A stretch of 64,000 nt of DNA from Nautilus pompilius (Eukaryota; Mollusca; Cephalopoda; Nautilida; Nautilidae), in the NCBI GenBank assembly GCA_018389105.1, contig JACATO010000332.1, positions 1,501,001 to 1,565,000 on the forward strand, given 5' to 3'. The translations under genes were made by a program, and so were the position numbers. The notes below the pieces were generated by a model that saw only the letters and a list, made by a program, of their open reading frames with translations, was not told the origin of the DNA and searched no databases. Position 1 is the stretch's first letter. Every line of letters begins with the position of its first letter. Shown one piece after another: positions 4,989 to 58,556 of the stretch.

Positions 4989-6527
4989 CAGGTGCATCTC
5001 AAAAAATTAGAATATCGTGGAAGAGTTCAATATTTTAGTCAGTTATTTCAGAAAGTGAAAATTGTATGTATTCTAGACTCATTACATGTAAACTAAAATG
5101 TTTCATGCATTTTTTAAATTTTAATTTTGATAATTACGGCCTACAGCTATAAAAAAATAGAAAAAACGTATCTCAAAATATTAGAATATTCCATTTCGAG
5201 TTTCAGTAAATCACTATTTATGCAGTATAAATACCATGAATCTCTCAGTTTGGTTCAGTACACACAACCACAATCATGGGGAAGACTGCTGACTTGACAG
5301 TTGTCCAGAAGACACTCATTGACACCCTCCAAAAGGAGGGTAATAAGCCACAGAAGGTCATTGCTGAAAGGGCTGGCTGTTCGCAGAGTGCTGTATAAAA
5401 GCACATTCATGGAAAGTTGACTGGAAGGGAAAAGTGTGGTAAGAAAAGGTGCACAAGCAAGAGGGATGACCGCAGCCTTGAGAGGATTGTCAAGCAAAGC
5501 CGATTCAAGAACTTGGGAGAGCTTCACAAGGAGTGGACTGAGGCTGGAGTCAGTGCATCAAGAGCCACCATGCACAGATGTGTCCAGGAAATGGGCTACA
5601 AGTGTCGCATTCCTAGTGTCAAGCTACTCTTGGACCAGAGACAACGTCAGAAGCGTCTTACCTGGGCTAAGGAGAATGAGAACTGAACCGTTGCTCAGTG
5701 GTCCAAAGTCCTCTTTTCAGATAAAAGTAAATTTTGTATTTCATTTGGAAATCAAGGTCCCACAGTCTGGAGGAAGAGTGGAGAAGCACAGAATCCAAGT
5801 TGCTTGAAGTCCAATGTGAAGTTTCCACAGTCAGTGATGATTTGGGGTGCCATGTCATCTATTGGTATTGGTCCACTGTGTTTTATCAAATCCAAAGTCA
5901 ACATAGCCATCTACCAGGAGATTTTAGATCACTTCATGCTTCCGTCTGCTGACAAGCTTTATGAAGATGCTGATTTCCTTTTCCAGCAGGACTTGGCACC
6001 TGCTCACAGTGCAAAAACTACTAGTAACTGGTTTTCTGACCATGCTATTACTGTGCTTGATTGGCCAGCCAATTCGCCTGACCTGAGGAAGATGAGAGAC
6101 ACCAGACCCAACAATACAGATGAGCTAAAGGCCACTATCAAAGCAATCTGGGCTTCCATAACACCTCAGCAGTGCCACAGGCTGATCGCCTCCATGCTAG
6201 GCAGCATTGATGCAGTGATTCGTGCAAAAGGAGCCCCGACCAAGTATTGAGTGCATAAATGAACATACTTTTCAGAAGTTCGACATTTCTATATTAGAAA
6301 TCCGTTTTTTAATTGATCTGATGAAATATTCTAATATTTCGAGACAGTGGATTTTTTTTATTTTCATGAGCTGTAAGCCGTAATCATCAAAGTTATAACA
6401 AAGAAGGCTTGAAATATTTCACTTTATGTGTAATGAATCTAGAATATGTGAAAGTTTCACTGTTTGAATTAAATTACGGAAAAAAATGAAATGTTCCACG
6501 ATATTCTAATTTTTTGAGATGCACCTG
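4989..6527 (+). mobile_element. Tc1-like DNA transposon, fish-type, non-autonomous by mutation
   Basis: The element is bounded by TA target duplications (4987-4988 and 6528-6529). Its terminal inverted repeats begin CAGGTGCATCTCAAAAAATT on the left, with the complement at the right end near 6498-6527. A second, inner pair of related repeats lies near 5169-5196 and 6320-6346 (core AATATTAGAATATT), giving an IR/DR layout like that of Sleeping Beauty-type elements. The single transposase frame lies at 5276-6250. The ends and protein strongly resemble a Tc1 family widespread in ray-finned fishes. Decay is light, so the insertion looks fairly young. Confidence 0.93.
5276..6250 (+). pseudogene. Tc1 transposase pseudogene (two stops, small deletion)
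   Basis: One continuous reading frame of 324 codons starts at ATG 5276 and ends at TGA 6248-6250. It is broken by TAA at 5396-5398 (codon 41) and TGA at 5684-5686 (codon 137); no frameshift was needed to follow it. Visible parts in order are an N-terminal helix-turn-helix pair, FSDKSKF with the first catalytic Asp, FQQDLAPAH with the second Asp, and NSPDL joined directly to RKMRDTRP. Members of the family have N-P-I-E-x-(L/I)-W after SPDL, so about 33 nt carrying the third catalytic residue (Glu) are missing. The Glu after the first Asp is Lys. Even without the stops this copy could not catalyse transposition, though its ends could be moved in trans. Confidence 0.93.
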
Positions 6528-15698: not shown

Positions 15699-18600
15699 GT
15701 TATTTATAGATGTTTATAGAAAATGTATTTTATGAAAATATTTCAGCGTGTTTTACTTTTTACACTTGTTATTTTGCCCAGTTTCCATACATTAAAACTT
15801 CGATATAACGGATTAATAGTGGGGGAAGAAATGGAGTCCGTTAAATCGAGGTCACTTGAGCAGAGAGACTCTAAAATATCGTGTTTCGTTGCCAGTAAAA
15901 TTGTATGAGTACCAGTTTGCTTTTTGTGGGTGGGTAATTAATGGATACATGTGGGCTGTGTGTACGAATGTGTGTCTGCGTGTGAGTGCTTATCGGATGA
16001 GTGAATGTATGGAGGTGCTTGGTTTCACTGGATATTTGATGAGGTGCGCTGGGTGCGTGGTATTGATGTGCCTTTTAGGTTTGTGGATACACAGGTGTCT
16101 TGGGGATATTTAGGAGTGCTAAGTTAAATGCCTTTGCGAATATGTTTGCGCCTGCGGCTTGACTCGCTCTCTTTCTCTGGAGGTATCAATTCAATGAAAC
16201 GAGTCGCTGTGTCAGGACCTTCTACCTACCACCACTGCTCACTGCGGCGCTGGATCAAACGAGCAATCAATCTATGCCTCTTTCACGATGGCGTTGCTCT
16301 TACCAGCGTTCGTGCCGTTAATTAAAAATTTTTTAAAAAATATATATATATCAGGGTAGGAAGAGGGTACAATCAGGGAAAGACAGAAAAAACAGGCGTG
16401 ACTTTGGTAGTTAATTTTTACGATAAGCAGAAGAAAACTGCTCAAGTTAACAGAGGTTATCACTCTATTGGTTCATTTTGTGATGTAAAATCCAATTATT
16501 AGGAAATTCAATGGATATAGAAAGTTTTATTGGTGTAATTTACAAATAGTTGGTGTTATTTTGAGTTTAAACTACAGGCACTGGTTAGGCGGACTTTTTT
16601 TCGGTAATATTTCTGCACAGTACTGAATTCTGACCACCATCGGTGGTGTTCATGCTTTATGAATACGTCGCCCTAAACATTATCACGATGTCATTTAACG
16701 TCGTGCAACCCCTTTACTAACAGAAATAAGGCTGGTTACAGTTTCCGGTTTCACAACGACTCCCCCTTGCCCACACTCTGTCTCGACATGTTTTCCTCAA
16801 TTTTTAACCGGATCACCAACCGTCTCTGGTAGTGTTGTTGAGACGCTAGGCACACGGCAAATATCACATTCATGCCTGCCCCAGACTTTTTTAACGGGAT
16901 TCGTGCCGAGCTTTCCTCTGGGCCTGGAAAGTCTGGTCACGCCCTAACCTTTGAAAAACCAGTCGGTGGTTCTGGTCCGGTAGGGACAGAGATAGCCATC
17001 ATGAAGCAGGAAGTTGTACCTATGGATCCGAAAGGCCCTAAACCATGTTAGCCAGGCCTTGTTTTCGGAGTTCGTGCGGTGACGTGGTGTTGCCTACTTG
17101 TCGTAGAATTTGTCGACTCTGTTCTTTTCTTATTTATGATTCGTAGCTTTATTCCGATCTAAGTGGATTTAGGCATCAGTTTGGCGTCGATGCGATGTCT
17201 TTTATGCTGTACTTACGCGGAACATAAAATTTCGTCTACTTTATTCAAGGTATTTAATACCCTTTTACATGCAAAACATACAATTCTATCCCTTTACACT
17301 TGAAAACTATGCATGAAAATAATCAGGTAGAAAATGACTAATGGACTATTTTAAATCTAATTTTGTTGTTTTGTTATAAAATAGAAATTAGTGGCCATTT
17401 TAGATGTTCCGCAGCTCGAATGCCTCGGGATGAGGATAATTATCGGCAGGGTTAGGGTTAAACGTTTTCTTTCCTTGTTATGTCCGAGGGCGCGGATATA
17501 AAAATCGCTTTGAAACTAAAATCTTGAACCATCACCTGGTCGTGTATTTTCTTTTATTTCTTCTCGACTGATTCAATAAAACTGCTAAGAAACACAAGGA
17601 TGGTCTCGAATCCAACAAAATCGGTATCTTAGTAAAATACAAATACCTATAGGACTTGCCGGGTATTCGAATTTTTCGATTAAAATTAAATAAATAAATA
17701 AACATGTTCGCAGTTTTAGATTTAAATAAATTTTCTTCTCCAAGACGACAGGAGTCTTTCAGAGTTCAGTGTTATAGCCAGATAATGGACATTAATTGAA
17801 AATAGAAAGATGTCTCATGCATGTCACTCAAGACGTAAACGCGGTTATATATGTCGTAAAAAAAAAATCACTTCAGTACTTTTCCTTGTATTGTATCGTT
17901 TGCAACCCTTTGATTTTCATTTAGTTTCTTCCCCGAAAAAGTTACATTTTGGAGTCCAACACTGGTATTTTATTATCTCCATGTTAAAGATATGGTAAGT
18001 GATCATGAACATCAAGTGCTTACCCAGAGTCTTTATATCCGCCACAACAATTATGCATTCATCTCTCCACTGTTCTATCTTCGACGTGAGATAGGTGTAT
18101 TTATTTCCGTAGCGGATAATTTGATTTAGTTTATGTTTGAGAGGGAATAAAACAATTCTTCGTTAAACATACGTTTTTCTATCATTTTAATTTTTGGTTT
18201 AAAGGTGTAAAGAATGAGGGACAAAATTATATTTGCGAAATAAAATTCCCATAAACCTCGCATATCGATGCAAGTGCTTGCGCATCGCTTTCTGTGTAAA
18301 CGAATACATCGTACGGCTTTTAGTTTCGTTAGAAAAGCGAAGACAGGAAATTTCCATCCCCAAAACACAATATTTAGAACAAACACACGTACGGTACGTA
18401 CCTTTCCCGGAAGACCTTATAAACGTATTTCTGGGTTTGCCGTGAGCTCACCTGAGAACAGTATTATTGCAAGGTATCTTTTATATAGTCGGCGATCGAT
18501 CCGATCTGTGGAGCGGCTACGCGAAGGAGACAGATGGCAGCTATGTTTGACGTGCCAGCCGAGTCTTCCAGCCGAGCGTTATCAGCACCAAAATTTGATT

Positions 18601-18774
18601 TTTTTCATTTTTTTTTTTAATATTTGGAATAATAATAGGTGTGAAGACATCAAAGTTACGTGATTGATAAAAAGATGTCTCTGCTGTATAGCGCGCTGTG
18701 TCTGGTTATGGGGGAAATGTACTCCAGCCACAGACTTTGAGCCGAGAGTTGTAAGCGTGACGTTGTATGTAAGA
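15326..18774. other. No gene recognised; ATA microsatellite at 15643-15695
   Basis: Small frames (15856-16113, 16128-16325 and others) lack recognisable features. The GC-richer block 16560-17060 may be decayed repeat DNA, but no motif could be fixed on either strand. A double copy of the telomere-like hexamer TTAGGG occurs at about 17449 and is too short to mean anything. Confidence 0.5.
15643..15695. repeat. (ATA)n microsatellite
   Basis: About 18 tandem AAT/ATA triplets without interruption. Confidence 0.96.
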
Positions 18775-18840
18775 TATATATATATAAAGGAAACTTTGCT
18801 GCGCGGAGCGTCTTATAAAGTGATTTAATGTGTTGTTGCA

Positions 18841-18898
18841 ATGGAGAAACAGATAAAGTTTACATTATGGGCTAGCATCTTTGGAGAAATATTTGAAG
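18841..18898 (+). CDS. Candidate 5' coding exon, unidentified
   Basis: A TATA-like box (TATATAAAGG near 18779-18788) precedes an ATG at 18841 with a favourable context (gcaATGG). Nineteen codons follow, MEKQIKFTLWASIFGEIFE, then one base and a donor GTAAATA starting at 18899. The peptide is short and hydrophobic in the middle, like a weak signal peptide or leader, and the exon would end in phase 1. No matching downstream exon was found on the plus strand, so the gene is not established. Promoter, start and donor in the right order within 120 bp are suggestive but can arise by chance in AT-rich DNA. Confidence 0.22.
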
Positions 18899-19499
18899 GT
18901 AAATAATTTTATCTTTTTAGAAAATATTTTTTGACGAAACGGTCATTAAAAAAAACACGGCAATCGTGATATCACAGCTTGGCTTGGGGCAGCCCGACTG
19001 TCCCCGTTTAAGGCTTGAGTTCGAATCTCGGTCGCGACAGATTCCTCTTGCGAGTTTAATGTGCATCATGATATTCGTCTTAAGACATGAATTCTTTCTT
19101 GCATAAATATGTATACAAAAATGCCATTATTGCTATACATAGTTTTCATAAATACAATTACCATTTATGATGGTTACTGGACAGCAATATACTGAAATCT
19201 GCAAATACAAATACAAATCCTGACAGAAAAAAATATGCTTATTTTGATGAGTTTTCATTTTCGTTTGGAAGGTATCTGTGGTAAGCTTCACCGTCGGCAT
19301 TACCGAATTTCCAAATTATTTTATATTTACTTTGAAATTTTGCAGTAGATTTTATCGAAGTGCACAGCAAAACAAAACGAACGACTAGAATTATTTTGGT
19401 AACCACAAAACTGTTTTATACTTTTAACAGTGCAATTTAATATACCAAAATCACTGTATTTAATACAATAATTGTATACGACTCATTCGCACTATTCTA
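18899..19499. other. No gene recognised; possible tRNA-like SINE relic near 18970-19045
   Basis: GAGTTCGAATCTC at about 19018-19030 fits a Pol III B box, and a weak A-box-like stretch with TGGCTTGGG lies about 40 bp upstream. The pieces do not fold into a tRNA by eye, so a degenerate tRNA-derived SINE head is the most that can be said. The remainder is AT-rich. Confidence 0.3.
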
Positions 19500-20212
19500 G
19501 AGAGAGAGAGATGATGATGTAACTACAGAGAGAGAGAGGGGATGGAGAGAGAGAGAGAGATAGAGATGATGATGTAACTACAGAGAGAGAGAGGGGATGG
19601 AGGAGAGAGAGAGAGATAGAGATGATGATGTTGTAACTACAGAGAGAGAGGGGATGGAGAGAGAGAGATGATGTAACTACAGAGAGAGAGAGAGAGAGAG
19701 ATAGAGATGATGATGTAACTACAGAGAGAGAGGGGATGGAGGAGAGAGAGAGATAGAGATGATGATGATGTAACTACAGAGAGAGAGAGAGAGGGGATGG
19801 AGAGAGAGAGAGAGATAGAGATGATGATGTAACTACAGAGAGAGAGAGGGGATGGAGGAGAGAGAGAGATAGAGATGATGTAACTACAGAGAGAGGGGAT
19901 GGAGAGAGAGAGATAAAGATGATGTAACTACAGAGAGAGATGGAGAGAGAGATGATGTACTACAGAGAGAGGGGATGGAGAGAGAGATAGAGATGATGTA
20001 ACTACAGAGAGAGATGGAGAGAGGAGATGATGTAACTACAGAAAGAGGGGGGTGAAGAGAGAGAGATGGAGAGAGAGAGAGATAGAGATGATGTAACTAC
20101 AGGAGAGAGGGGGATGGAGAGAGAGAGAGATAGAGATGATGTAACTACAGAAAGAGATGGAGAGAGAGCGATGATGTAACTACAGAGAGAGGGGGATGGA
20201 GAGAGAGAGATG

Positions 20213-20257
<45 letters not shown>
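19500..20257. repeat. GA-rich minisatellite, about 15 units
   Basis: Tandem units of roughly 35-60 bp each contain a conserved core GATGATGTAACTACAG flanked by variable GAGA runs and a GGGATGGAGAGA segment. About fifteen cores can be counted. Units differ in the number of GA and GAT repeats, as expected from slippage. The serine/leucine frame on the minus strand (20002-20337) is an artefact of the repeat. Confidence 0.95.
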
Positions 20258-36250: not shown

Positions 36251-37893
36251 TACACCGGTGTGCAAAAGTCTTGCATAAAAATAATTTTTCCTGTAAATTA
36301 GCTCGCATTTTGTCGAAAGCAGTTGTTATCAAATCTTGTTCAGTAAAGTATTTCTATATTACTGTTGTGCATCTATTCCAATAATACCAAGCATATTGTT
36401 TCATTGTAAGAAAGTTATAATTTTTAGAAAATCATTTGCATCAAATCAATGTGTGCAAAAGTGTTGCATAAAATCTAGACAGCTATCTAATCAATTCAGA
36501 TTCAATTCCAGTTATGCAGAAAGTGATCAGATCTATCAATAATGAGTAGAATATCCGAAATTCATGATAACTTGTTCACAACGACGAGGCATGCTGGCTA
36601 CCAAACGCTGACAATTGTCACTACTGAACTCCGACCAGGCTTCCTCGATTTTCCGTTTCAAATTAGATTTATTTTTCGGTTTTTTGGCTCTAACGCTGAG
36701 TTTAATCGAGTGCCAAATGTTTTCGATGGGATTGAGATCTGGGCTTTGAGCCGGCCAGTCGAGGAGGGAGATTCGCAACTCTGTCATCAAAGCCTTGACA
36801 CTCCTAGCTGTGTGGACGGGGGCGTTGTCCTGCTGATAGATGGCCGTCAGGGGCATGTGGTCACACACATACGGTTCGACAATGTCCGAGACGATCTTAG
36901 CATAGTCATGAGCATTCATTCAACCCTCCACGTGATGCGACGGACCGACACCGGACGATTGAAGACAGCCCCAAACCATGGCCGAATCTGCCCCTGCCTG
37001 CAGAGTCGGTCGAGTGCAACTAGGATAGTATTTCTCGGACACTGATCGCCGAACGTACACCCGACCCGTCGAGTGGACCCTCACGAATTTGCTTTCGTCG
37101 GAAAACAACACTCGGGACCGCTGGGCTACGGTCCAGTGGAGATGGTCGCGAGCCCACTGCAGTCGCTTTCGACGATTGTCCAGACAGATGAACGGTTTCT
37201 TCTGTGCCGATCGATCGAACAGTCCCATGTGGATCAAACGCCGTCTGATGGTGCACGAGGCCAACTGGATCCAATGGTGCCTTGACAAGGCGATCTGGAT
37301 GTCGGTGGAAGTGCGGAATCGGTCCGAGTTCGACATGCGGGCGATCAGACGATCCCGTCGAGCCGTCGTTTTCCGCGATCTGCCGGCTCTGCGTTTCGAA
37401 ATTAGGCTCCCATCGGCTTTCCAACCTTTCAGGGTGCGAGATATCGTCGACTGATTGCAACCGATACGATCCGCAACGACCCACTCAGTTTCGCCATCTT
37501 CTTTCATGCGAACGATTGTGGCCCGCTGTTCGGGGTCAAATATCGGGCTCTCGGCATCACTATATTGAACAAAAATTAATCAGAATAGTGGAAAATGACA
37601 GTTTTTCATATTTATATTCTACTATCCTAAACTATTATAGCACAAAATATATATTCTAATGTTTGTAATTTATGCAACACTTTTGCACTCGCCGATTTCA
37701 TGCAAATTATTTTATTAATATTTAAATTTTGACTCTGCAATTACAAAATGGATCTTAGTGTTATAAATCGTTTAAAGACACCGATACCTTTCAATTAAAA
37801 CAGAAAACATACAATAGCTACTAATTTCTACAAAATAAGAACCCATTTTCTAAGTGTAGTCATTTTTATGTAAGACTTTTGCACACCGCTGTA
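36251..37893 (-). mobile_element. Tc1-like DNA transposon, nearly intact
   Basis: TA dinucleotides at 36251-36252 and 37892-37893 flank terminal inverted repeats of about 31 bp. The left one is CACCGGTGTGCAAAAGTCTT with ATAAAAAT shortly after; the right one is its complement with two or three differences. Inner copies of the GTGCAAAAGTGTTGCATAAA motif lie at about 36450-36472 and, inverted, at 37671-37692. They are about 200 bp from each end, an IR/DR layout. The transposase is on the minus strand at 36536-37560. The family differs from the 4989-6527 element in both ends and protein. Confidence 0.93.
36536..37560 (-). pseudogene. Tc1 transposase, one stop and one N-terminal frameshift
   Basis: From the internal ATG at 37507 the frame runs 323 codons to the stop at 36536-36538, interrupted only by TGA at 36920-36922. 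A paired helix-turn-helix DNA-binding region includes VADRIGCNQSTISRTLKGW. All three catalytic residues are visible: FSDESKF (Asp), IYQQDNAPVHTA (Asp) and SPDLNPIENIW (Glu), in the DD34E arrangement. The frame continues upstream without ATG (DPEQRATIVRMKE), while an ATG at about 37551 opens MPRARYLTP in a frame one base off. A one-base deletion near 37530 therefore probably separates the true start from the body. Only these two lesions are apparent. Confidence 0.92.
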
Positions 37894-51244: not shown

Positions 51245-52531
51245 CGAGGTCTGTCGAAAAAGGAATCCGACCTTAGGCTGGGGAAAAAAAATTAAGTACT
51301 TGTTTGGGTTCAATTGCTAATCCCCTTCAAAGTAGGCCCCTTGTGCCTCCACACACTTAACCCAGCGATCCTTCCACTGTTCGAAGCACGTCTGGAATGC
51401 TTCTTCTGGAATGGCTCTCAGCTCCGCCGTCGCATTCCGCATGATGTCCTCTCGGCTCTCAAAGCGGGAGCCTTTCAGTGGCATCTTCATTTTTGGGAAC
51501 AACCAGAAGTCAGAAGGAGCCGTGTCTGGAGAGTAGGGAGCCTGGCGAATGAGCGAAATGCCTTTCTTTGCCAAGAAACCTTGGATCAGCTGCGACGAAT
51601 GAGCCGGGGCGTTGTCATGATGCAGCTGTCAGTTTTGCAAGGCCCACGGATCCAGTCTGTTGCGCCGAGCTGTATCACGAAGACGTCGGAGGACTTCCTG
51701 ATATTACTCCTTTGTAACTGTTTGTCCTTCTGGTGCATATTCGTGATTCACAACACCTCGGTAGTCGAAGAAAACAGTCAGCATCACCTTGATTTTGCTC
51801 AGGACCTGACGTTGGGTGCTTCCACTGTAATGACTGAGCTTTGGTTTCCGGGTCGTACCCGTCACGTCTCATCTTCAGTTATCACGGTATTCTGGAACTC
51901 AGGATCCCTGTGGACAGTATCCAGCAGGTCATGCGCAACCTCAAGACGAAGTTGTTATTGTTCCTGAGAAAGCAGCTTGGGCACAGCGCAAGCCCAAATC
52001 TTCCTTTAAAATTGCATGTGCAGAATCTTTACTCATCCCAACCTCGTCACCAGTTTCTCGCGCCGTCAAACGACGATCCTCCATTATCAAGGTCCGCACT
52101 TTCTCGATAACAACTTCATTGCGGCTTGTTGACGGCCTTCCGGAACGCTGGTCACTCTCCACCGATGCGTCCATCTTTGAACCAGTTGTACCATTCTTTT
52201 ATTTGGGTAACATCCATGGCATTGTCACCAAAAGCCTGTTGAATTTTTGCAAATTGTTTCCGCTTGGGTATCTCCAAGCTTTTGGCAAAACTTGATGCAA
52301 GATCGTTGCTCCACACGTTCCGTCATCACGGGCGAAATGAAAATGCGACGAGTAAGTAGTACAGCACCTCACACACTGGCTGCCTGACAGTGACTGACAC
52401 ATCCAGCAAGCCTGCCAAAAACCACGCATGCGCATGAAGGCATGCGGCTCCACTATGCACCCTTTTGCCTCCCTAACATCATTACTTCCCACAAGAAAAA
52501 ATAAAATCGGATACTTTTTCTTCAGACCTCG
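51245..52531 (-). mobile_element. mariner DNA transposon, inactive
   Basis: TA pairs at 51243-51244 and 52532-52533 flank inverted repeats that begin CGAGGTCTGTCGAAAAAGG on the left and, read from the other end, CGAGGTCTGAAGAAAAAGT on the right. The length (1287 bp) and single minus-strand transposase are normal for mariner. It sits between the Ly6-type gene and the esterase-fold gene, which are on the same strand. Confidence 0.92.
51317..52326 (-). pseudogene. mariner transposase pseudogene
   Basis: ATG at 52326 opens VEQRSCIKFCQKLGDTQAET, the HTH_48-type N-terminus. A frameshift follows, then KIQQAFGDNAMDVTQIKEWY and, after another shift, SVESDQRSGRPSTSRN and LTARETGDEVGMS, the second DNA-binding segment. 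The C-terminal frame (51574-51317) contains APYSPDTAPSDFWLFPKMK with the third catalytic Asp, as expected for DD34D mariners, and ends at 51317. HHDNAPAHSS with the second Asp is visible just upstream in another frame. The total of 1010 nt is not a multiple of three, consistent with frameshifts. Confidence 0.9.
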
Positions 52532-53043: not shown

Positions 53044-53271
53044 TTAGAGTTTCGTGTTCTCTTCAATGGTTGGTTCTTTGTTCTGATTCATATATTCATT
53101 AACTATTCCGTGAGAACTCAGGCCAGTCCTTCCACACTCTTCAGACGACTTTTTATTCATTCTCATGTGCACTCTCACTTTGTGAATCTTAGAGATGATG
53201 GTGATCAGAGTAGCGCAGATCACAGCTAGGAAAAGGGTGACTATCAAAAGTGCCAGTAACAGTTCTTCAAC
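53044..53271 (-). CDS. Esterase-fold gene, transmembrane and tail exon
   Basis: After acceptor TTTTTCAAG, the exon opens in phase 0 with VEELLLALLIVTLFLAVICA, a transmembrane helix, then a basic stop-transfer segment (SKIHKVRVHMRMNKK). A polar tail ends N-T-K-L before TAA at 53044-53046. The last three residues fit a class I PDZ-binding motif (S/T-x-hydrophobic), like the ends of neuroligins. Confidence 0.85.
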   Translation of the reverse strand, partial: VEELLLALLIVTLFLAVICATLITIISKIHKVRVHMRMNKKSSEECGRTGLSSHGIVNEYMNQNKEPTIEENTKL

Positions 53272-54775
53272 CTTGAAAAAGTACAAAATAAGTAAATTAA
53301 TCTTGTTGATATAGTTACGAAATAGTTAACAATGAAAACATGATGTAATTATATAAGTTTAAACAATAATAACAACAGTGAATTTTAAGAATTTCACTTC
53401 TAACTTCCAGATACAAATACAAAATATTGTCTACAAAGCTCATTTTGTTACTTTTAAAACAAAAACTACATATAGCATATTACAGTTTTACACTATATAT
53501 GAAATTAATTATTTATATGTACCAGGTGACCTTAAACTTATTTATGCTTTCGGTAGCTGTAACTCTCAACAGAGTGCATACACAAGGAGTCATGGAAATG
53601 CGTTTTCGGAGTTTTCAGATTTTTTCCCACTGTGAGGCGCCACTTACGCTCTGTGACGAACTGTGTCAATTTTTCTTTTGTTTACAGATATGCGGAGCCT
53701 TGAGAATCGTTTGTCAGCTTGTAGAGATTCCTGCGAACAGTTGTTCTTCTTCTAGATCGCACGGCAAGTGAAAAGTTAGAATTAAACCACTTTAAAAAAA
53801 ATCGTCTAGAATTTGTTTCATTAAATTACTGTTAGTAACTAGGGAAATTCAACCCTAAAACTGACAATATCATGCCCCAAAAAAGAGAAAAACCTGGTCA
53901 GTTTTAAGATTGAATTTCCCTAGTTACATGGGCGCTACCACTGAGAGTTATCAGCAACCGACTGCAAATATTAACTTTGAGATAACTCGATTTATGCTTA
54001 ATGTCACAAACATTAAATTGAAATGCGTGTAATTATATTTGCATTCTAATACGCAAGTGTCAGGGTTCTTAGCAATCAGACCATTTTTGTGAAACCAGTG
54101 GTTTTAATGGATGCGTGATCCCTTTTATTACAGTTTCCCTGCCTCTTTCTACGATATATATATATAAGTCCCTTTCTGAAATTTGTCTAAAACCATATCT
54201 AACACCAACTAATGGTGTAGCTCTGTCACAGATCTAATCTCAGCGGAAATTTACCGAGAGTTATATGCTAGCGACTAAATCAATTCATTCTAACGGGAAA
54301 CTACAGACGTACCTTGTAGAATAAATTACCAGCAATAGTTTTAATAAGTTACCAAATGAATGAATGGTTAAAAAATAATCATAGTTAGTAAATTCATTAG
54401 TTGCTTTTTTAACATTTCTAAACAATGCTTAGTTGTGTTTTGTGTGTCTCTCTTTAACTAAATAAATGCCCACGTCGTGCTTGGCACGATGTATCAAAAT
54501 ATCAAAATTTTAAAATTTTTATTGATGTATTATAAATCATAGTTAAATTTTAGTCAACAAATCCATTGTATTGTTTAATCAAGCGATTATTGATTTTTAT
54601 TATATGATTTTTATTTAATTTTTTTGCAATACAAACTGTATTATAATTCAATTCTTCTATTTGTACCATAAATATTTCAACACATCTCTGCTTTATGGAT
54701 ATCAGACAGAATGTGGTTAAGATTCTTCGATAATAAATATTTCTTAATTCTATTGAAATATGCGCAGATAGATAC

Positions 54776-54807
<32 letters not shown>

Positions 54808-57800
54808 GATGATTATGGAACTTTCTTAAAATAAACTGGAACATTATTTTCCTCGAACTTGTGAGTGACTACACCACATAGAAATGGAGACGAATATTTT
54901 CTCAGCAAATCCTCCATCTAGTAAACATGGATTGATTCTAACATATTTAGTCGGGAAATAACTTCTGTAACAGCATACCTGTTTTTCTGTCATTCCCCAG
55001 TCAACAGAATTACCTTTAAAAGCAAAAGAAACCCAAAAAATCGTTTATTACAAATTAGCTAAACAGAAATTATGATTATTATAAAAGAAAAACGATAAGA
55101 TAACATAATTAAAGAGTGCATATAATACTACCGAAACATACTTGCATATATAAATATTTGTATACGTATTTAAATCATCGCAATCTTCATGGTTTGTAGC
55201 AACAACCTTCGAATACAATTCAAGTTTATGATTCTAATCTTTAGACAATTTAATCGGGATTAAAACATCAAAAATAAATGTAAGAGATAGATATCTGTAC
55301 ATGCACATACCTCTGCGCTGCATCGTTGGCATTATATGAGGCTTCACTAGTGTGTTGTTTTTCCAGGTGAGTAGAGTCGGTATCAGTTCGTTCCAAAATA
55401 TCCTGGCTCCTTCTAGAAGCTTTGTCTTCACTTTATCCTCCGTTATATTCGCTGTCAGTTCCAAGTACCACTTCTTTGACCCATCGTATTGCGGCCACGT
55501 GACGTTACTGTGTGATCTTGGACGGCTATGTACGTGAAGAGAAAGCACGACGAATATCGTTCACCATTAATGATAAAATCTGACCAGCGGTTTGGATGTT
55601 TTTATTTTGGTGTGTGTGTGTGTGTGTGTGTGCGTGTGTTTGTGTGTGTGTGTGTGGTGTGTGTGTGTGTGCGCGTGTGTTTGTGTGTGTGTGTGTGTGG
55701 TTAAAGCAAAACAACCAAAATGATCCAACTTTGTAATGAAAGTCAGTTTGCTATGCGTGAAAATAACAGTGTAATCCTACTGCATTTTGAGAATATGAGA
55801 ACCATATAATGGATGGAATGCAACTCTGATCATCAATTCTGTCAGTTATCCGGCCGTGATTAGCTAATAATTATTTGTAAATTTTGTTCCACTGACGACT
55901 GTCTTTTGTAGAATTTCTGGCATATCAAACACTACTTCATTGGGACTGCGGTTGACGAAAACTTATGTACCCGTTATTACCAGGAATTAATAACCAATAG
56001 CCGACATTCGATGTGTCGTTGTCGTCATCGTAGATTCGTTAATTATAGTTGCTTATCAAATGGTGACATCGGGCTGAAAAAATTACGTGTGTGTGCGTGA
56101 GTTTTGAATATCCAGCTGCAATGTTAACTATCTAAAGATATTAAATTATATTGCTTTTTGTGGGCATGGGCGTTTGTACCGCAACACTGTTATTCTGCTT
56201 CCAAATCCAACTTATATGTTTTTTTTTCTTTCTAGAATATGTTTGCCCCTCAATAGAAAGATGCATTTTGGTTTTGTTGGCCTTAATTTAACTTACGAAA
56301 CTAAGGCTAAAGAAAGGGGGTTCATGTTTTCTGATCGTTAAACAAGGAAGAATAAATATTAAATTCTAGCAAGGAACATTAAACTTGTCGAATAATTTTT
56401 AAATCAAATTTTTATTGTAAAGAAATTAGTTTAATCCTAGTAACATCTTAGTTAGGTCATCATCGCCATCCTTCGTCCGCTCCTGCAAAAGTTATGGTTC
56501 CGAAAACTGTTTTGGTGCCAAAGGAAAATCTGATTCTTTGAAAAGAAAAGTTAAGCCAGCTTCTATGTTGATAGAGTTTAAGAAACTTACCTGACGTACT
56601 GTTTGTAAGCGGGAACACCTGTATATATGCATTTACACCGTATTAATCGAATTTATTTAGTGATAAAGGTAAGGCATCTTTTCTTCGGAACGTTAAATAC
56701 ACTAATCAATAATAATATTTTCATTCAGATTCTAACCAAATTAAATATACGATCGGCAAAACAAGAAGAAAACACGAAGCTAATCGACTTGAACAGTCTA
56801 GCAACAAACGTTAAAAAAATGATAAATAGGTGGATCTTTAATTTTTTTTAAAAAATTAATTAAGTTTCCAGTAAAATAATGAACTTATTCAACGTGGACG
56901 GTGTCGAAGAAACATGAATTCGCGATGCAAATATCTACAACTAGTCAATAAAGGAATAGATATCGCTTCGGTTCGTTATATGGAATTAATTTTACACATT
57001 TTGAACATTTTAATATTAAATGTAGCTAACTGTTAGCTCTCTCATGATGATAATTATTTAATTTTGAGAAGAATGTTTTTTACTTACCCGTGATAAGCAA
57101 AAGTAGACAGGGCTGCCATCATCTTCTGGCTGATATAGAGCTCTTCAGTAGTAGCGGTGTCATTCGTAGAGTGCGCACCGAGAAACGTTTGTCCAAAGAG
57201 AAACGGAAGTTCCTGCAACACGGAAGCCGTAGAGGATGCAAGCGGCGGGGATTGGGGCCACCTGTGAGCGATATAATATAGGTAGGTCTGCGACCCTGAC
57301 AGCGAATAAGAATTAGCTGCTGCAACAGCGGAAGAAACCTGCTTGTCTCTGACAATGTTCAAGAAAGCTGCGACAAAGCCTTTAGCATTGGCTGGAAAAT
57401 ATTTGGCCAAAATGGCGTCCTTAGATATTTTATTAAATGGTGTGTGTAGATGCGAACCGAACCTCTTAATGACTCTACGAAGCAATTGTTCGTTTCTCGG
57501 CAAAGGATAAGTAGAAAGTAAAGGAAAAAACGCACTAGAATCTGCTCCAATTAGGCAGTCAACATTTGAGAAACTTCCTCCAATTCGTAGCTTCGATGGA
57601 TCGTCCGGAAGATATGCATAATCAACAACTGGCATAAAACTAAAAAAGCCAGTTTTCTGAGAGGCTTCAAAGAGATGAGAGGCTGCTTGGTGTCTTAAGC
57701 AATGAGCAACGTCAGATATTTTCGGTAATTCAGTGTCCCCTTTTACACATCCAACCAGTCTCGCCACGTTTATCATGGCTTCTGCTGGCTGAGTTTCGTT

Positions 57801-58556
57801 ACGTTTTTTCAGATGCAGTAATCCGTTCCAACTTGCTAATGCCGCTCTTTGGAACAACCCTTTGGAACGAGGACTAAGCACATGAAATTCGACGCTCATT
57901 GCGCCTGATGATTCTCCAAACAACGTTATTTTATTTGAATCTCCTCCAAAGTGATGGATGTTATGTTTAATCCACTGTATTGCTAACTGTTGGTCCAAAA
58001 TTCCATAGTTTCCCTGTAAGTCTTTATCTCCAGTGGCTAGAAATCCAAAAATTCCAAGGCGATAATTCAGAGTAACAACAATGACGTTACCCGTTAAGGA
58101 CAGTCTGGTTCCGTCCTGCGCCATTCCGCTTCCTATCTGAAACCAACCTCCGTGAATCCAGATCATGACCGGAAGCGCGGATTTCGGCTCCGATGAGAAA
58201 TTTCCAGGTAGGTATATGTTAAGGTACAGGCAATCCTCGGAGGTGTTGGCGTGAATAGGATTCGTGGCATACCACCAGGTTGTCGTCATGTTCTGCAGGC
58301 ATGCGTCTGAGAACATGATAGCCGTCCGTGCCCCGCGCCACGATGCTAACTTTTCGGGTGGTCGAAACCGCAGCTCCCCTAGTGGGGGTTTCCCGTAAGG
58401 CACACCCAGAAATACCGTAACGTTGGTTGATGGGTCGTAAAAACCTTCTAGCTCGCCCTGCTCTACTGTCAACTGAACTGGCCACCTGTCCTCCGCGTTT
58501 GCTTTTCCCGAGACAAAGCATTCCGCAACACAAACAACTAGAGCTAGATAATACAT
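53044..58556 (-). CDS. Cholinesterase-like adhesion/receptor protein, 648 aa, 4 exons
   Basis: Exons 57088-58556, 55311-55525, 54979-55013 and 53044-53271 join in matching phases (2, 1, 0) to 1947 nt. Residues 1-21 are a signal peptide; about 24-560 form the esterase fold; about 577-598 span the membrane; about 50 residues face the cytoplasm, ending T-K-L. Family marks include EDCLYLNIY (108-116), IHGGWF (134-139) and LFGESSGAM with nucleophile Ser216. Likely disulphides are C86-C109 and C270-C286. The catalytic Glu position is Ser (CLIGADSSAFF, 334-344) and the His position is Val446 (SVLQELPFLFG). The triad is therefore broken and hydrolysis is not expected. Membrane proteins of this type (neuroligin, gliotactin, neurotactin) bind partner cells. 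Several N-glycosylation sites are present. Orthology to any named member is not established. Confidence 0.92.
53835..53927 (-). ncRNA. Intronic long hairpin (possible small-RNA precursor or MITE)
   Basis: Arms of 31 nt at 53835-53865 and 53897-53927 are inverted copies with two differences, separated by a 31-nt loop. On the minus strand, the sense strand of the host gene, both differences become G-U pairs, so the stem is fully paired. On the plus strand they are C-A mismatches. It lies in intron 3 of the esterase-fold gene. A pre-microRNA-like hairpin, a tiny MITE or a chance palindrome are possible; expression is unknown. Confidence 0.45.
54778..54808. repeat. (TTTA)n microsatellite in intron 3
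   Basis: About seven to eight TTTA units inside the third intron of the esterase-fold gene. Confidence 0.93.
54979..55013 (-). CDS. Esterase-fold gene, 35-nt microexon
   Basis: Acceptor TTTCTTTTGCTTTTAAAG lies directly upstream and donor CAG followed by GTATGC directly downstream. It encodes GNSVDWGMTEKQ with the flanking base and converts phase 1 to phase 0, exactly as needed to join exon 2 to exon 4. The peptide forms part of the stalk before the membrane segment. Confidence 0.72.
55311..55525 (-). CDS. Esterase-fold gene, coding exon 2
   Basis: Acceptor TTCACGTACATAG precedes 55525 and donor GTATGTGC follows 55311. It encodes RPRSHSNVTWPQYDGSKKWY and, later, RIFWNELIPTLL, the C-terminal strand and helix of the fold. 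These correspond to the V-x-W-x-x-Y and F-W-x-E-L-x-P-x-L segments of neuroligins and esterases. Three N-glycosylation sites (NVT, NIT, NNT) lie here. Confidence 0.88.
55610..55700. repeat. (GT)n microsatellite in intron 1
   Basis: About 90 bp of GT dinucleotides with a few interruptions, inside the first intron of the esterase-fold gene, about 85 nt upstream of exon 2. The adjacent TH-repeat frame is an artefact. Confidence 0.95.
57088..58556 (-). CDS. Esterase-fold gene, coding exon 1
   Basis: ATG 58556 starts the hydrophobic leader MYYLALVVCVAECFVSG. The exon encodes residues 1-489 and two bases of codon 490, ending at donor GTAAGTA (57087 downward). Almost the whole esterase domain lies in this single exon, which is much less AT-rich than its surroundings. 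The intron begins where the family has F-A-x-x-G before the C-terminal W-P-x-Y segment. Confidence 0.93.

Follow-up and report, generated by a model that had tools for sequence, protein, structure and literature searches.

A cholinesterase-like membrane protein of Nautilus pompilius that keeps the nucleophile serine and is probably catalytically inactive

Cholinesterase-like adhesion molecules (CLAMs), among them the neuroligins, gliotactins, neurotactins, and glutactins, combine a PF00135 ectodomain with a membrane anchor and miss at least one residue of the catalytic Ser-Glu-His triad, and missing triad residues are a known mark of these membrane-bound cholinesterase-like proteins (PMC9958613). 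The stretch analyzed here, a 64-kb window of the Nautilus pompilius genome (positions 1501001 to 1565000 of its contig, JACATO010000332.1, labelled C323), carries on its minus strand an esterase-like gene of four exons and 648 codons. Its predicted product, referred to as the window protein, resembles the CLAMs in having a PF00135 ectodomain, in lacking at least one triad residue, and in being membrane bound, exon 4 encoding a predicted helix about 22 residues long. In NLGN2 (elbow GSGAG), as in a neuroligin-like locus of the same genome, Ser is lost and Glu and His are kept, whereas the window protein shows the complementary loss, with Ser kept and Glu and His gone. An earlier reading made from the letters of this stretch alone (the sequence-only reading) had stated that vertebrate neuroligins lost the Ser, which is right for the chain compared. 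Caenorhabditis elegans GLIT-1, unlike the window protein, has all three triad residues replaced (PMC5773152). Acetylcholinesterase (AChE) and butyrylcholinesterase (BChE) share with the window protein the fold, the GESxG elbow, and the best blastp scores, but the window protein differs from them in lacking Glu and His, in having Trp in the oxyanion motif, and in its predicted membrane helix and cytoplasmic tail. We put at roughly 80% the probability that the window protein belongs to the carboxyl/cholinesterase family as a type I membrane-anchored protein without catalytic activity, a CLAM. Judged by its sequence, it is ordinary in kind, and its pattern of a kept Ser with lost Glu and His is uncommon.

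Comparison with relatives indicates that the catalytic centre is lost and that the fold is not decaying. The 80 relatives aligned comprise 79 loci from bacterial genomes and one viral contig, giving 81 rows with the window protein; not among them are L042 (824 aa) and two viral loci (L082, L083), and the viral scan had yielded three relatives among 35 pattern matches. The GESSG elbow with Ser216, reported as intact by the sequence-only reading, was confirmed, and this Ser is invariant among the relatives (Table 1). The His column holds His in 78 of the 80 relatives and a gap in the other two, and Val446 stands there in the window protein, as had been claimed; residues 432 to 449 (RWPQSPPLASSTASVLQE) contain no His, and its loss is therefore independent of the alignment. 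The Glu position had been read as Ser. The absence of an acid holds either way, but the identity of the residue depends on the alignment: gapped alignments (phmmer, and MAFFT with rows from the own genome) place Ser340 there through a two-residue deletion, and the ungapped alignment, in which 77 of the relatives have Glu and 3 have Asp in this column, places Ala342. Neither residue is acidic, and Asp339 is the sole acid within residues 337 to 355. Seventy-two columns with a residue in the window protein are conserved in 72 or more of the 80 relatives; it matches 61 of them, and the acid and His columns are among the 11 that differ. Position 138, which we take to be the third residue of the oxyanion-hole motif and to match Gly119 of Torpedo AChE, is occupied by Trp, and Trp138 and Trp243 suggest additional signs of inactivity. 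The enzyme is very probably dead.

The esterase fold named by the sequence-only reading was upheld by a structure model and by structure comparisons. The ectodomain model built from the 81-row alignment has a predicted local distance difference test (pLDDT) score of 84.6 and shows the usual fold of cholinesterases, neuroligins, and carboxylesterases; it supersedes an unusable model of exon 1 folded without an alignment (pLDDT 35.8). Foldseek and VIA-align comparisons gave no separation of carboxylesterases, cholinesterases, and neuroligins. The profile PF00135 matches the exon 1 product over residues 28 to 488 with 374.7 bits, the curated cut-off being 27 bits, and because of this score and of the approximately 489 codons open in one exon, the gene is beyond chance. 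Against NCBIfam, exon 1 gave three matches, all far under their cut-offs, and exon 4 gave none. The coordinates, strand, and length first proposed for the gene proved exact, with GT-AG borders at all three introns, and its signal peptide, single membrane helix, and tail are borne out by reading of the sequence and by hydropathy. A 28-base candidate exon between an AG and a GT (56618-56591, minus strand) was rejected, since both the frame and family-conserved sequence are kept when exon 1 is spliced straight to 55525; an alternative transcript may use it. Intron 1 contains a GT microsatellite of about 45 units (window 55610-55699), and AATAAA/ATTAAA signals lie about 169, 260, and 841 bases downstream of the stop on the minus strand. 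The segment ARIFWNELIPTLL in exon 2 is one that we take to resemble the dimer helix of cholinesterases and neuroligins. All nine N-glycosylation sequons precede the membrane helix. The C-terminal -TKL fits the class I PDZ pattern, for which the chance expectation is about 4%; -TKL may be a class I PDZ end and YMNQ an SH2-ligand-like motif, both readings being weak evidence.

Table 1. Positions in the window of the exons, protein segments, and active-site residues of the esterase-like gene
Feature	Window positions	Strand	Remarks
Exon 1	57088..58556	-	Residues 1-489 plus 2 bases: start codon, signal peptide, most of esterase domain; open frame, GT donor
Signal peptide	58494..58556	-	Residues 1-21; cleavage probable after AxA (ANA/ED, slash marking the cut); read by eye, no predictor
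Exon 2	55311..55525	-	End of esterase domain; carries ARIFWNELIPTLL; splice junctions
Exon 3	54979..55013	-	35-base linker exon; splice junctions and frame
Exon 4	53044..53271	-	Membrane helix, cytoplasmic tail, stop
Predicted transmembrane helix	53200..53265	-	Residues ~576-597; hydropathy maximum 3.04 over 19 residues
Cytoplasmic tail, 51 residues	53047..53199	-	Basic start, YMNQ motif, -TKL end
Ser216, kept nucleophile of GESSG	57909..57911	-	Ser in 80/80 relatives
Glu loop, residues 337-344 GADSSAFF	57525..57548	-	Ser340 or Ala342 at Glu position
His loop, residues 432-449	57210..57263	-	No His; Val446 at His position
Trp138 in HGGW, third oxyanion-hole motif position	58143..58145	-	Relatives Gly 46, Ala 25, Ser 8, Thr 1 (n = 80)
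Trp243, after Ser242	57828..57830	-	Relatives Gly 67, Ala 5, Pro 4, Tyr 3, Arg 1 (n = 80)

In the own-genome assembly (727.6 Mb), a search with exon 1 found a single copy of the window locus, at 100% identity. Elsewhere, long matches were confined to C1321 (33%, 177.7 bits), C123 (36%, 170.3 bits), and C49 (44%, 164.8 bits); after these came nine short exon matches with 36 to 56% identity. The PF00135 profile gave 39 exon-level matches, grouped into about 10 loci. Ser-Glu-His is read in six of them, namely, the AChE-like C123 and C1321 together with C1091, C2028, C621, and C300. The whole triad lies within one open frame in C123, C1321, and C1091; the triads of C2028, C621, and C300 are pieced from separate exon matches, some of them weak (10.8 to 21.4 bits), and their single-gene status is unproven. 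A second, C621-like cluster on C2028 stands outside this count. PF00135 exons of C621:833789-864350 and C2028:556508-586964 have near-identical scores and a near-constant offset of about 277.3 kb, and the pair probably reflects either haplotypes or a duplication of recent date. In the window gene a single exon carries the main domain, as in both AChE-like loci, and the GHSxG loci are many-exon genes.

The triad is altered in four loci, C49, C597, C23, and the window gene, and only the last keeps Ser. C49 has Asp (GADAG), Lys, and Gln at the three positions. In the neuroligin-like C597, one exon, near 413 kb, supplies Gly and another, near 332 kb, supplies Glu and His, the derivation of the two from a single gene being unproven, and C23 has Asp at the Ser position, the remaining two positions not being recovered. 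C49 (L087/L092; L092 8014-9640) is another locus with the esterase fold, and none of its triad residues remains. It resembles the window gene in its broken-triad esterase domain and in an open frame further downstream that encodes a hydrophobic helix and a short basic tail, and it is 43 to 44% identical to the window protein over 230 to 242 query residues and 38% over 333 columns, but it has no Ser, and the AChE-like loci slightly outscore it against the window protein. The N-terminal part of the C49 domain lies in another reading frame, which may reflect a short intron, decay, or an error in the assembly. The membrane helix of neurotactins sits N-terminal of the esterase domain (cf. PMC5943944), a layout not matched by the window protein, whose helix lies after that domain. 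A neurotactin layout is seen in C23 (L105 7402-9351), in which a hydrophobic stretch stands ahead of an esterase-like domain with a GKDSG elbow. Neurotactins have been termed insect-only (PMC9958613), yet some are counted in a mite (PMC4965064) and in the salmon louse (PMC8387733).

Altered triads have also been described in other animals. Five of 39 locust carboxylesterases are altered, all five without Ser (PMC3983256), in line with frequent loss of this residue, and mites likewise have members without an intact triad (PMC4965064). A honeybee alpha-esterase said to lack only His (PMC2784812) counts against the uniqueness of the window pattern, on which the residue patterns of the 15 altered esterases of the silkworm may also bear. 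Published cases that retain Ser may therefore exist.

Phylogenetic analyses place the window protein with the animal cholinesterases and neuroligins, and its exact place inside the group is not fixed by the trees. In the second tree of 17 rows, from which C23 and L006 were dropped, it grouped with the animal cholinesterases, the neuroligins, C49, and the GHSxG loci on a branch with a support of 96/93, outside which five bacterial esterases and C1091 fell; the corresponding branch of the first, 19-row tree had a support of 92/84. The window branch is long, with 2.11 to 2.28 changes per column, and no branch of the 17-row tree exceeds it (2.11). The AChE chain (5hq3), which we take to be a stabilized variant of human AChE, pairs with BChE in the trees and was counted as an animal cholinesterase. 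None of four placements was rejected by approximately unbiased (AU) tests, the window protein being held with C49 (p = 0.471), the neuroligins (p = 0.295), the neuroligins and C49 (p = 0.424), or the cholinesterases (p = 0.383). The sequence-only reading had called the triad pattern an unusual intermediate. Unusual it is within its own genome, as the sole Ser-keeping case among four, but an intermediate place in the order of loss is not shown by the trees, in which no alternative was rejected.

Among more specific readings, a diverged neuroligin that acts with neurexin would be a special case of the CLAM interpretation, with which its odds overlap, and it is unlikely. NLGN2 gives the highest tree-column identity (38% over 402 to 405 columns) and the best core-block score (52% identity, 136 bits), the general architecture is alike, and a clade with the neuroligins survives the AU tests. 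The same tests, however, also keep the cholinesterase and C49 clades, whole-domain blastp scores are higher for the AChE and BChE chains (230 bits each) than for NLGN2 (218 bits), core-block identities are similar (55% for AChE and 53% for BChE), and the genome has a separate neuroligin-like locus on C597. In NLGN1, the neurexin contacts lie mainly in residues 395 to 402 (PMC2570956), a loop that also holds the Glu position. The window protein reads GADSSAFF where NLGN2 reads GVNQGEGLKFV; the contact loop, ADSSAFF, is not conserved, and a neuroligin-style neurexin contact is therefore unlikely. Some bee neuroligins also diverge at this loop (PMC2570956), and the mismatch therefore speaks less against membership of the family than against the binding mode.

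Several points weigh against an inactive CLAM. The catalytic loops are poorly modelled, with block mean pLDDT values of 62 (residues 341 to 350) and 60 to 61 (residues 431 to 450) and values below 50 at residues 437 to 444, and the alignment that fed the model is prokaryotic and viral. Asp339 lies close to the Glu position, and the retention of Ser differs from the other inactive loci of the genome. A weakly active or unconventional hydrolase, with Asp339 or a distant residue replacing the missing triad members, would draw on this proximity and on the intact Ser216 and GG of the oxyanion motif; given the lack of His in residues 432 to 449 and Trp138 within that motif, it is the least probable of the explanations weighed. 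A young or dying esterase pseudogene is very improbable: the long branch and the single copy found in the genome agree with it, but the frame stays open over 648 codons, the four exons meet at GT-AG junctions, 61 conserved columns are matched, and despite the long branch there are no stops or frame changes. The gibberellin receptor of plants, GID1, is an intracellular protein. It has lost the active-site His and kept Ser, as in the window protein, and its Ser and Asp touch the hormone (PMC3531792). On this model the window protein would act as a receptor for a small molecule or would sequester it, its old pocket binding a ligand that touches Ser216 but is not turned over, and Ser216, the elbow glycines, and Ser242 are all kept. 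GID1 retains the acid, which the window protein does not, and belongs with the hormone-sensitive lipases, a different branch of the fold; moreover, Trp138 and Trp243, in place of mostly small residues adjoining the catalytic motifs, may fill the pocket, making this reading quite improbable. An animal cell-surface receptor for a small molecule, evolved from an esterase through loss of the catalytic acid and base, in which the cholinesterase family would independently have reached the GID1-like solution of Ser as a ligand contact and joined it to a membrane anchor and a signalling tail, is more doubtful still than either the pocket receptor or the pseudogene.

For the preferred reading, an inactive CLAM, the most likely role, by analogy with several relatives, is that of a cell-surface binding or adhesion protein. 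The label "receptor" that the window protein had been given is an inference, and the lineage specificity proposed with it is at most a possibility. A signal peptide would be followed by the ectodomain, the membrane helix, a basic stop-transfer segment, and the 51-residue tail, and the ectodomain would be glycosylated and displayed at the cell surface. By analogy with the neuroligins, it may dimerize via a cholinesterase-type helix bundle and act by binding partner proteins instead of hydrolyzing esters, and the tail would anchor the protein, possibly through a PDZ protein. Ser216 is probably noncatalytic, kept as part of the tight nucleophile-elbow turn or not yet drifted.

The remainder of the window contains pieces of Tc1/mariner-type transposons, assigned by reading to positions 5399-6247, 36539-37579, and 51320-52322, the last of which (mariner by reading) lies about 700 bases beyond the 3' end of the esterase-like gene. 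A Pfam run on 106 chosen frames, including exon 1, of the 225 listed frames of at least 60 residues matched a Tc3-type helix-turn-helix and DDE_3 in two frames each, the search giving no positions. Rfam and tRNA scans of the 64-kb window gave no matches. At window 19527-20255 lies an AG-rich tandem array in which a GATGATGTAACTACA core recurs, overlapping the block with the highest GC skew (16001-20000). The assembly also contains 117 COX1-like matches, many broken or with stops, such as L119 to L121 (96 of 180 candidates scored), which suggests that nuclear copies of mitochondrial DNA are abundant in this genome.

The order in which catalytic parts are lost on the way from enzyme to adhesion protein is poorly sampled. 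A Ser kept without the acid, the base, and the small oxyanion residue would offer a natural test of the structural or ligand use of the elbow Ser, and even as a plain CLAM, the window protein would add a member to the family beyond the well-studied neuroligins.
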